A stretch of DNA of 52,133 bases from Candidatus Saccharibacteria bacterium RIFCSPHIGHO2_12_FULL_47_16b (lineage in GTDB: Bacteria > Patescibacteriota > Saccharimonadia > Saccharimonadales > UBA10212), in NCBI GenBank assembly GCA_001790525.1, contig MGCU01000010.1, forward strand, positions 1-52,133, read 5' to 3'. Made by a program: the position numbers and the translations under genes. Numbering within the stretch: position 1 is the first letter of the stretch; each line of letters starts with the position of its first letter. This document shows positions 24,701-28,737 of this stretch, in pieces. The notes below the pieces were generated by a model. The model was not told where the DNA came from. It searched no databases and saw only the letters and a list, made by a program, of their open reading frames with translations.

Positions 24701-25006
24701 TTAATTTCTGGTTTGTCTTTTAATTAATCGTCTGTTTAATCCGCTCACAAGCCAACCGATTGCTAATGCTCCAATTAATCCTATGATGACTGCCCCTTCC
24801 CAGTTATGTGTCATGGACTCTACTCCAACAGCTATTCCAGCAGCGGCAACTGATGTCAAAGCAGCGTATCCAATTCTTTTCTTCAATACTCGTCTTTTGG
24901 CTGTCTCGGCCTCAAGCATGCCGCTCGTTGGAAACCTTTCGCGATACATGGTTGGATCTCGCTGAAAGCGCTCAAGATTAAATTCTTCTCGATCGTCTCT
25001 ATTCAT
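24701..25006 (-). CDS. Small two-span membrane protein, unknown
   Basis: 101 residues from ATG 25006. The longer frame up to 25147 would run through a probable structured RNA and its terminator, so it is rejected. TAGACA-N17-TATACA ends three bases before ATG, indicating a leaderless message. The N-terminus is charged (NRDDREEFNLERFQRDP); two hydrophobic segments and a basic end (NRRLIKRQTRN) follow. No family recognised. Confidence 0.6.
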   Translation of the reverse strand: MNRDDREEFNLERFQRDPTMYRERFPTSGMLEAETAKRRVLKKRIGYAALTSVAAAGIAVGVESMTHNWEGAVIIGLIGALAIGWLVSGLNRRLIKRQTRN

Positions 25007-25037
25007 TGTTGTATATATTTTAACATAAATTATGTCT

Positions 25038-25067
25038 AAAAGCAAAACTCCGCGTGTATAGCGGAGC
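25038..25067 (-). terminator. Intrinsic terminator of putative ncRNA
   Basis: On the minus strand: CTCCGC-TATACAC-GCGGAG followed by TTTTGCTTTT. The plus strand also has a short T run (CTTTTTGG), so it may act both ways. Confidence 0.75.
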
Positions 25068-25213
25068 TTTTTGGCTTCGCGCAGCCCACCCTTGCCCCGC
25101 TCAAAAACCTGAATGGAATAGTCGGTAATCGGATTATGGAATTTCAAGTTTTAGTGCGGGGCGTGGCCTGAAACGTTTGTTTTTGTTTCCGTAGCCCTTG
25201 GTGCGCGAAGCCT
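25038..25213 (-). ncRNA. Putative structured non-coding RNA, about 175 nt
   Basis: Bounded by a consensus promoter (TTGACA-N17-TGTAAT) and an intrinsic terminator, with no convincing ORF on the minus strand. A perfect 11-bp closing stem pairs GGCTTCGCGCA (25202-25212) with TGCGCGAAGCC (25073-25083). Inside are a small hairpin GAAAC-N10-GTTTC, a GCCCCGC/GCGGGGC stem (25156-25162 with 25094-25100), and above it AAAACTTGAA facing TTCAGGTTTT with one mismatch. The rod with a large asymmetric internal region recalls 6S RNA in general plan, but no family signature was recognised: not RNase P, tmRNA or SRP RNA. The inner stem-loop has a related copy at 49013-49085. Confidence 0.7.
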
Positions 25214-25219
25214 GCCAAT

Positions 25220-25248
25220 ATTACACGCTTACGCTTATTTTTTGTCAA
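25220..25248 (-). promoter_or_regulatory. Consensus sigma70 promoter of putative ncRNA
   Basis: TTGACA (complement of 25243-25248), exactly 17 bp, TGTAAT (complement of 25220-25225). Start expected near 25213. It is one of the best-matching promoters in the window. Confidence 0.8.
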
Positions 25249-26598: not shown

Positions 26599-28623
26599 TT
26601 AATGCTGGGCAAGCAAGTCAAGTAATTTCTGCTCGTCAATCTGCTTGGTGCCGAGCTTTCTGGCTTTGACTAATTTTGCCTCACCAACGTTAGCCCCCAC
26701 CACTAAATAGTCAGTCTCATTGCTGACCGAACTTTGGAAAGTCCCACCTTTGGCCCGGATGCGTTCGGCCGCCTCTTCCCGACTCATCGATTCCAATGTA
26801 CCGGTAACCACAAAGCTCTTGCCGCTTAATGGGCCGGTAGTTTTGCGAACGGCTTGAAGTTCAACTTCCAGTCTTTTGAATTTAGCTAGTAATTTTTTGT
26901 GAACCGGTTGCTCAAACCATTCCACTATTGCTTCGGCCACCACCTCGCCTATACCTTCAACAGCACTTAGTTCGTCAATCGTGGCATCTCTTAAATTTTC
27001 CATTGAATGAAAATGATTAGCTAAATCAATAGCCGTCTGTTCGCCGACGTGCCGAATGCCAAGTCCAAATAAAAAGCGCGGTAAAGGCGGATTTTTCTTA
27101 GCGGCGATTGCCAAAACCAATTTGTCGGCTGAAATATTAGCAAAGCGTTCCAATTTCAGTAAATCTTCTTTCTTAATAGAATAAATGTCAGCTTGATCGC
27201 GAATTAAGCCGGCTTGGATTAGGGCCATGACATTTTTCTCTCCCAGGCCTTCGATGTCTAAGGCGCCTTTGGATGCAAAGTGGCCAATTAATTTCCACGA
27301 CCGTGATGGACAAGCTGTGTTCGGGCATCGCCAAATAGCCTCTGTAGCTTTGGCTTTGACCAGTTTAGTGCCGCAATCCGGGCAATGGGTTGGCATGACG
27401 AATTTCTTCTCGCTGCCATCGCGTAGTTTTTTAAGCGGCTCAACCACTTCTGGAATAACGTCGCCGGCTTTATGAACAATTACCGTATCGCCGATTCGGA
27501 TGTCTTTGCGATGAACCTCGCCTTCGTTATGCAAAGTAGCCATTTGAACGGTACTGCCGGCCACCACTACCGGTTCGAGCATAGCCACAGGTGTGGCAGC
27601 GCCGGTCCGGCCAATGCTGACAAAAATATCTTTAACTTTGGTTGTGGCCTGCTCGGCTGGATACTTAAAGGCAACTGAACCGCGGGGCGCCTTACCAACC
27701 ACACCCAGCCGTTCATGCAGCCGGCGGTCATTAATTTTAATTACCAGACCATCTGTATTAAACCGCAACTTCTGCCGCTGCTGCTCCCATTTTTTATGGA
27801 ATTTGATTATTTCATCTGCCGAGTTGGCGACAGTGGCCATCGGATTGGCAATTACGCCAAGTGAACACAAGGTTTTATAGGCAAAGTCGTTGGTTAGGAC
27901 CTCGGCTTTGTTTTCATGGATTAAATCATAAGCATGGAAATGTAATGGTCTGGCAGCGACTAGCTTTGGATCAAGCTGACGGATAGTGCCGGCAGCTGTG
28001 TTGCGCGGATTGGCAAAAGCCGGTTTGCCGGCCTTGGTTTGTTGCTCGTTCAATTTTTTAAAGTCGTCTTTATACATGACGATCTCGCCGCGGATTTCGG
28101 TTCGGCCACCTAGGAATTTGACGCTGTCTTTAGTTTGCCTCAACCGTAGCGGCACAGATTCGATGGTGCGAACATTGGCAGTTACGTCCTCGCCAACAAA
28201 TCCATCGCCACGGGTTATAGCTTGCTTATAAACGCTGTCCTCGTAAACAATCGCGCAAGCCAAGCCATCCATCTTGATATCCATAAAATATTCCAGCTTA
28301 GCACCGGCCGGTAGTAATTTTTTAATCCGCTCAATCCAGGCATTGAGTTCGGTTTCGTCAAAAACGTCATTCAGGCTCAACATCCGCGAGCTATGCTGAA
28401 CCTGCTTAAAGCCGGGTAAGGGCTCGCCGGCTACTCGTTGGGATGGCGAATCGGGTGTTATCAGCTCCGGATACCTTTCTTCGATCTGTGACAGTTCATG
28501 CTTGAGACTATCGGCCGCTGCCTCGCTCATTATCGACTTATTGAGCACATGATAATGATAACGGTAATCATTTATCAGTTCGCATAATTTGGCCGCCCTC
28601 GCGGCTGGATCATATTTAGCCAT
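26599..28623 (-). CDS. ligA: NAD-dependent DNA ligase
   Basis: 674 residues from ATG 28623 (GGAG upstream); the TTG extension to 28644 is rejected because it includes that ribosome-binding site. Order: Ia domain, adenylation domain with the active-site KMDG in DIKMDGLACAIVYE, GRTEIRGEIV, TDGLVIKIND, OB fold, four-Cys zinc finger (CPDCG ... CPNTACPSR), helix-hairpin-helix region and C-terminal BRCT domain (SGKSFVVTGTLESMSREEA). It seals nicks during replication and repair. Complete and of usual length. Confidence 0.97.
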   Translation of the reverse strand: MAKYDPAARAAKLCELINDYRYHYHVLNKSIMSEAAADSLKHELSQIEERYPELITPDSPSQRVAGEPLPGFKQVQHSSRMLSLNDVFDETELNAWIERIKKLLPAGAKLEYFMDIKMDGLACAIVYEDSVYKQAITRGDGFVGEDVTANVRTIESVPLRLRQTKDSVKFLGGRTEIRGEIVMYKDDFKKLNEQQTKAGKPAFANPRNTAAGTIRQLDPKLVAARPLHFHAYDLIHENKAEVLTNDFAYKTLCSLGVIANPMATVANSADEIIKFHKKWEQQRQKLRFNTDGLVIKINDRRLHERLGVVGKAPRGSVAFKYPAEQATTKVKDIFVSIGRTGAATPVAMLEPVVVAGSTVQMATLHNEGEVHRKDIRIGDTVIVHKAGDVIPEVVEPLKKLRDGSEKKFVMPTHCPDCGTKLVKAKATEAIWRCPNTACPSRSWKLIGHFASKGALDIEGLGEKNVMALIQAGLIRDQADIYSIKKEDLLKLERFANISADKLVLAIAAKKNPPLPRFLFGLGIRHVGEQTAIDLANHFHSMENLRDATIDELSAVEGIGEVVAEAIVEWFEQPVHKKLLAKFKRLEVELQAVRKTTGPLSGKSFVVTGTLESMSREEAAERIRAKGGTFQSSVSNETDYLVVGANVGEAKLVKARKLGTKQIDEQKLLDLLAQH

Positions 28624-28639
28624 AATGGACTTCTCCAGC

Positions 28640-28737
28640 CGCAAACTCTAAACTCGAAACTCTAAACTCTAAGGTTTGGAATTTAGAACTTAGTATTTGG
28701 GATTTGTTGAGGATTTCGGGTTTAGGAATTAGGGTTT
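28640..28737. repeat. Low-complexity intergenic repeat, copy 2
   Basis: Begins AAACTCTAAACTCGAAACTC and matches the repeat at 10212-10290 over about 80 bases. It lies between the membrane-protein gene and ligA, both minus strand. Confidence 0.7.

Follow-up and report, generated by a model that had tools for sequence, protein, structure and literature searches.

The minus strand of the window (the whole analysed stretch of DNA, 52,133 nt from Candidatus Saccharibacteria bacterium RIFCSPHIGHO2_12_FULL_47_16b) carries at 25038-25213 what we read, with a probability of about 0.6, as a stand-alone gene for a non-coding RNA that belongs, as the long, repeat-carrying form, to an undescribed family of Saccharimonadales RNAs and whose action in trans as a ribonucleoprotein is inferred. 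The existence of a novel structured RNA family as such is almost certain. The observed elements are a sigma-70-type promoter, a closing stem P1, a stem P2 capped by an A-rich loop, the 3′-side element GGGUGGGC between P2 and P1, and a terminator. The large central hairpin of the RNA is a copy of a dispersed palindromic repeat and does not belong to the conserved core.

Organization of the RNA gene

The coordinates of all elements are collected in Table 1. The 5′ end of the RNA was inferred and is located about 6-7 nt past the −10 box.

Table 1. Elements of the RNA gene and its conserved upstream neighbour (positions in the window)
Element	Position	Strand	Basis
−35 box TTGACA	25243..25248	(-)	sequence; kept in 11 relatives
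Spacer between −35 and −10 boxes, 17 nt	between 25243 and 25225	(-)	sequence
−10 box TGTAAT, with the conserved spacer motif TAAGCGTAAGCG just before it	25220..25225	(-)	sequence and family alignment
Predicted ncRNA transcript	25038..25213	(-)	promoter and terminator positions; no RNA data
P1, 5′ strand GGCUUCGCGCA	25202..25212	(-)	fold; compensatory replacement of nearly all pairs in other families of the order
P2-equivalent, 5′ strand GGCU	25193..25196	(-)	fold; P2 covaries across the order
A-rich loop AAACAAAAACAAAC	25175..25188	(-)	A-rich loop in every homologue
P2-equivalent, 3′ strand GGCC	25165..25168	(-)	fold
Copy of the ~70-nt palindromic dispersed repeat, in the interval between P2′ and GGGUGGGC, outside the conserved core	25094..25162	(-)	DNA search and alignments
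GGGUGGGC, near-invariant, immediately 5′ of the P1 3′ strand	25084..25091	(-)	identical in 12 family members; kept across the order (see text)
P1, 3′ strand UGCGCGAAGCC	25073..25083	(-)	fold; 11/11 pairs with GGCUUCGCGCA; covariation
Intrinsic terminator hairpin, 10 bp, then GCUUUU to 25038	25044..25070	(-)	fold and sequence
Terminator stem strands	25070-25061 / 25053-25044	(-)	U-rich tail to 25038
ligA (NAD-dependent DNA ligase), conserved upstream neighbour	26599..28644	(-)	synteny

A sequence-only reading of this DNA had described a novel structured RNA of the lineage, with the promoter TTGACA-N17-TGTAAT, a perfect 11-bp closing stem, an intrinsic terminator and no convincing ORF on the minus strand. 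These elements are present as described: the promoter is exact at 25248-25220, all 11 pairs join 25212-25202 to 25083-25073, the terminator ends at 25038, and the minus-strand ORF at 24701-25147 is only the downstream gene (ATG at 25005) extended backwards into the ncRNA. Novelty and structure were judged correctly; the range of the RNA was missed, that is, its presence across the order, where the window holds a repeat-carrying long form, and the near-invariance of GGGUGGGC. Our scan for consensus promoters overlooked the promoter of the RNA because the tool demands A at the second position of the −10 box.

Folding of 25030-25215 gives a minimum free energy of −72.5 kcal/mol, compared with −46.4 ± 3.9 kcal/mol for dinucleotide shuffles (z −6.7), and none of 200 shuffles was as good. 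Part of this unusual stability is contributed by the 70-nt palindromic repeat at 25094-25162.

Comparison with Rfam 15 identified only tRNAs in the window at curated or gathering score, and no family matched the RNA. The best sub-threshold results of a permissive cmscan of the locus were two chance matches (E ~2) to terminator look-alikes on the opposite strand. RNase P RNA, tmRNA and SRP RNA, whose signatures the sequence-only reading had found absent, and 6S RNA, whose motifs it had not recognised, were each tested and rejected. For tmRNA, ARAGORN reports only tRNAs in the window, and for RNase P RNA (RF00010) there is no match at the locus.

Conservation and covariation across the order

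In the window's family (f1) the RNA lies 3′ of ligA in 12 of the 16 genomes. This gene order holds with or without an intervening XTP-pyrophosphatase gene, save where a contig end hides the locus. The 17-mer GGGTGGGCTGCGCGAAG was likewise found in 12/16 genomes, either exactly or, in G006, as a one-base variant. Each copy in the family has TTGAC, a spacer of the TAAGC/AAGCG type, a −10 box near TGTAAT, GCUUCGCGCACC, GGGUGGGCUGCGCGAAG and usually a terminator. All carriers with names in the 17-mer scan are 'Candidatus Saccharibacteria' or 'Saccharimonadales' assemblies; the remaining exact matches are scattered across unrelated bacteria and were regarded as chance. Three genomes of the same family (G005, G008 and G009) have no recognisable copy of the RNA downstream of ligA. 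At that place G005 has a GAAGCUUA/UAAGCUUC stem.

In other families, the sequence that follows ligA holds shorter RNAs of the same plan. They consist of a closing stem CGUGCGC/GCGCACG, an inner stem such as GCGGCG/CGCCGC, a loop of A-rich AAAYAAAMA repeats, GGGUGGGC, the closing strand and a terminator. Of 393 genomes of the order, 110 gave a match to the RNA in a gapped pattern search, against one match in the reversed-pattern control columns. The covariance model R2 raised this to 188/393 genomes, one match per genome, in 25 families besides f1, and the RNA is present in 26 of the 37 sampled Saccharimonadales families, whose genomes measure 0.5-1.6 Mb. One carrier genome contains a single copy in 800 kb. 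In many families the RNA and ligA share a strand, and no more than 150 bp separate the ligA end from the start of the RNA. R2 gave no match in any genome outside Saccharimonadales in a phylum-wide sample. Roughly half of the order, with the large genus g61, is also without a match, although weak matches are lost in the search filters.

Among 58 aligned members from the order, GGGUGGGC is kept in 56, the promoter has an exact TTGAC in 40, and the terminator has a T4 run in 47; the f36 type has TTGYG-like boxes. The structure of the aligned members comprises a P1 of 8-11 bp, a P2 of 5-7 bp and an internal loop with about 3-6 nt on one side and 8-10 nt on the other.

How is the long form of the window's family related to these short RNAs? 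The model R1, trained on f1 only, and R2, whose training set had no f1 member, do not cross-match at strict thresholds, and R1 did not reach beyond f1, owing to the variable middle part of the RNA. When run without filters, R2 ranks the RNA first at each of seven f1 loci (E from 0.0016 to 0.36). The two forms agree in place, promoter, GGGUGGGC and plan. MAFFT misaligns the 5′ strand when f1 and short forms are combined, and therefore no joint alignment was counted.

P1 is UUCGCGCA/UGCGCGAA in the window versus UCGUGCGC/GCGCACGA elsewhere, so that nearly every pair differs, and the differences are compensatory. In alignment A5 (56 distinct rows) 97.7% of cells are paired, and 11 of the 14 P1/P2 pairs show two-sided changes. 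The covariation score is 0.377 versus 0.125 ± 0.010 for shuffled alignments, none of which (0/500) reached it, and structures slid along A5 scored at most 0.052. It should be noted that R2 was trained on a structure named by the analyst and that A5 was fitted to R2; A5 was used instead of A4, into which the palindromic structure had drawn weak matches on the antisense strand. The control, a structure-blind MAFFT alignment of close relatives (A3), gave a small signal in the same direction, with only two pairs varying on both sides. The RNA is a structured ncRNA whose conserved structure covaries beyond controls, more weakly but consistently on A3. Both conservation in relatives and covariation, which had been named as checks on the sequence-only reading, have come out in its favour.

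Possible action and competing explanations

We tentatively propose, at somewhat less than even odds, an RNA with a housekeeping or regulatory role that acts in trans and is bound by protein; its function has not been shown, and neither a partner nor a phenotype is known. Transcription and abundance are inferences from promoter and terminator conservation, without RNA-seq data. The RNA would be produced as an abundant, exonuclease-resistant transcript of about 110-180 nt and would act in trans, binding a protein or RNP via GGGUGGGC and the A-rich tracts.

In the structure of the RNA GGGUGGGC is single-stranded or alternately paired. The 5′ strand of P1 may alternatively pair with the segment just past the 5′ strand of P2, and GGGUGGGC has a possible alternative partner in the C-rich P2′ region. 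Two local hairpins could thus form first during transcription and later give way to the full P1-closed fold, which is predicted to be about 8 kcal/mol more stable. The alternative 5′ hairpin is strongest in f36 (GCGCAAAGG/CCUUUGCGC), where its pairs are mostly invariant; taken alone, it has z values between −2 and −4 in several members of that family. A folding switch is plausible and remains unproven, with a weak signal overall (mean z of the local hairpins about −1, and about −1.2 in f36). We regard as unlikely the wider proposal of an order-wide bistable core regulator, in which refolding would decide whether a dedicated partner can reach GGGUGGGC and the A-rich tracts, in bacteria that no longer have SRP.

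The near fixation of an 8-nt element between varying stems is seed-like, and the RNA could be a trans-acting antisense sRNA in which GGGUGGGC recognises GCCCACCC-like sites in mRNAs. However, a search of 800 kb from the carrier G108 showed no enrichment at starts: two copies of GCCCACCC are located close to gene starts (0.9 expected), neither of them plausible as a real start, and GCCCACC occurs twice where 3.2 were expected. In addition, GGGUGGGC can pair internally in many members. This explanation is doubtful, though we keep it in consideration.

With 6S RNA (RF00013) our RNA has in common its stand-alone, single-copy nature, its own promoter and terminator, and a closed, rod-like shape interrupted by an asymmetric internal loop. 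RF00013 is also unmatched in the genome of the window (G000). One reading would make our RNA a 6S RNA that has diverged strongly and imitates an open promoter. This is very unlikely. The RNA has no sequence or covariance match to RF00013 at the gathering score or even at E 10, its internal loop (about 3-6 by 8-10 nt) is far smaller than the large central bubble of 6S RNA, and 6S scores are given by a different RNA adjacent to rpmB, also in the carriers G039, G045, G066 and G194. Weak matches to the 6S model (25-44 bits, cut-off 46.4) were detected in 14 of 276 genomes of the order, away from the locus of our RNA, and in 10 of the 12 loci examined they adjoin rpmB. The rpmB-linked RNA (L041, L278-L288) has a common GGGAGC...GCACCCACCUGG and is probably the 6S RNA of the order, missed by the Rfam cut-off. 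Its CCCACCU (L041, L278-L284) is complementary to GGGUGGG in 25084-25091 (seven pairs, one of them G-U), which may be either a contact or a coincidence.

A gene on the same strand (24701-25005) follows the RNA in the window, an arrangement suitable for a cis-regulatory leader or attenuator of that gene. Among the relatives, however, the downstream gene varies (genes of a small membrane protein, an opposite-strand tRNA, S4-domain proteins and others), and the RNA with its terminator persists despite these changes. The chance that it is a leader appears slight.

The central repeat and comparison with known systems

A DNA search in 61 relatives gave 46 BLAST matches in 13 genomes, of two kinds: most cover only 25091-25161, the palindromic repeat, and occur at many sites per genome, while the rest represent the outer parts of the RNA. 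The repeat is about 70 nt long and palindromic, CCCCGCACTAAAACTTG...CAGGTTTTAGTGCGGGG, and changes in its arms compensate each other between copies. It is dispersed in the window's family and was examined at 25094-25162 of the window and at L004-L030. The copies are located mostly at gene ends, and four lie inside predicted ORFs. The repeat is RPE/MITE-like, with dispersed palindromic copies, some of them within genes. An integron attC site was also considered for it and dropped, since the outermost arms are GC-rich and have no RYYYAAC/GTTRRRY.

The repeat occupies the interval between P2′ and GGGUGGGC in the RNA of the window and of genomes G012 and G006. It is inverted in the RNA of G010 and reduced to a short remnant in that of G015; it is absent from the RNAs of G001, G002, G003, G004, G007, G011 and G014. 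The sequence-only reading, correct in proposing a novel structured RNA, had overlooked that the central hairpin is a dispersed repeat. If this hairpin is a repeat with further copies elsewhere in the genome, then one can ask: Is the whole RNA only an artefact of a palindromic mobile repeat that lies next to a terminator? This is already refuted by the repeat-free homologues, which retain the promoter, the closing stem P1, GGGUGGGC and the terminator; aligned members from across the order are also without the repeat. We give such an artefact hardly any credence.

The weakest candidate, the missing SRP RNA of these bacteria, needed considering because RF00169 is unmatched in 31/31 Saccharimonadales genomes, and small SRP RNA does share with our RNA a size of about 100 nt and a stable hairpin, but the RNA has no GNRA-type domain IV hairpin or other domain IV features and no covariance match to Rfam SRP families at the locus, and the Ffh M domain (PF02978) was found in 0/31 of these genomes versus 14/14 controls, so this identity is practically ruled out. 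The Saccharimonadales seem to have lost the signal recognition particle altogether.

A search of open-access text found no paper on ncRNA, 6S RNA or SRP RNA of Saccharibacteria. The novelty claimed here is at the level of the RNA family, as no known family fits; the mode of action may prove to be of a known kind. Kept in 26/37 families of small genomes with conserved promoter, structure and terminator, the RNA is probably important there. No other group of the Candidate Phyla Radiation is as well cultivated as the Saccharibacteria. The RNA provides a concrete gene for deletion, probing and use as bait in cultured members that are naturally transformable. It also shows that major RNAs of this radiation escape annotation based on Rfam.

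RNase P RNA and tmRNA are, like our RNA, encoded by stand-alone genes, with housekeeping roles that our RNA may share. They differ from it in that true RNase P RNAs are encoded separately in most relatives, elsewhere in 13/16 genomes of the family, and in that the tRNA-like ends and tag reading frame of tmRNA are missing from our RNA. In the genus of the window (G000 and G001) no RNase P RNA match was detected, and almost all relatives score 218-261 bits; either a contig is absent from these assemblies or their RNase P RNA has diverged.

As for the insert at 25094-25162, a comparable case is known from Rickettsia, whose palindromic elements (RPEs) have been reported inside tmRNA and M1 RNA (PMC2229807). 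The RPEs are longer (105-146 bp versus about 70 nt), the two lineages are unrelated, and copies of the insert lie mostly at gene ends. In both cases, however, a dispersed palindromic repeat is located within an RNA gene.
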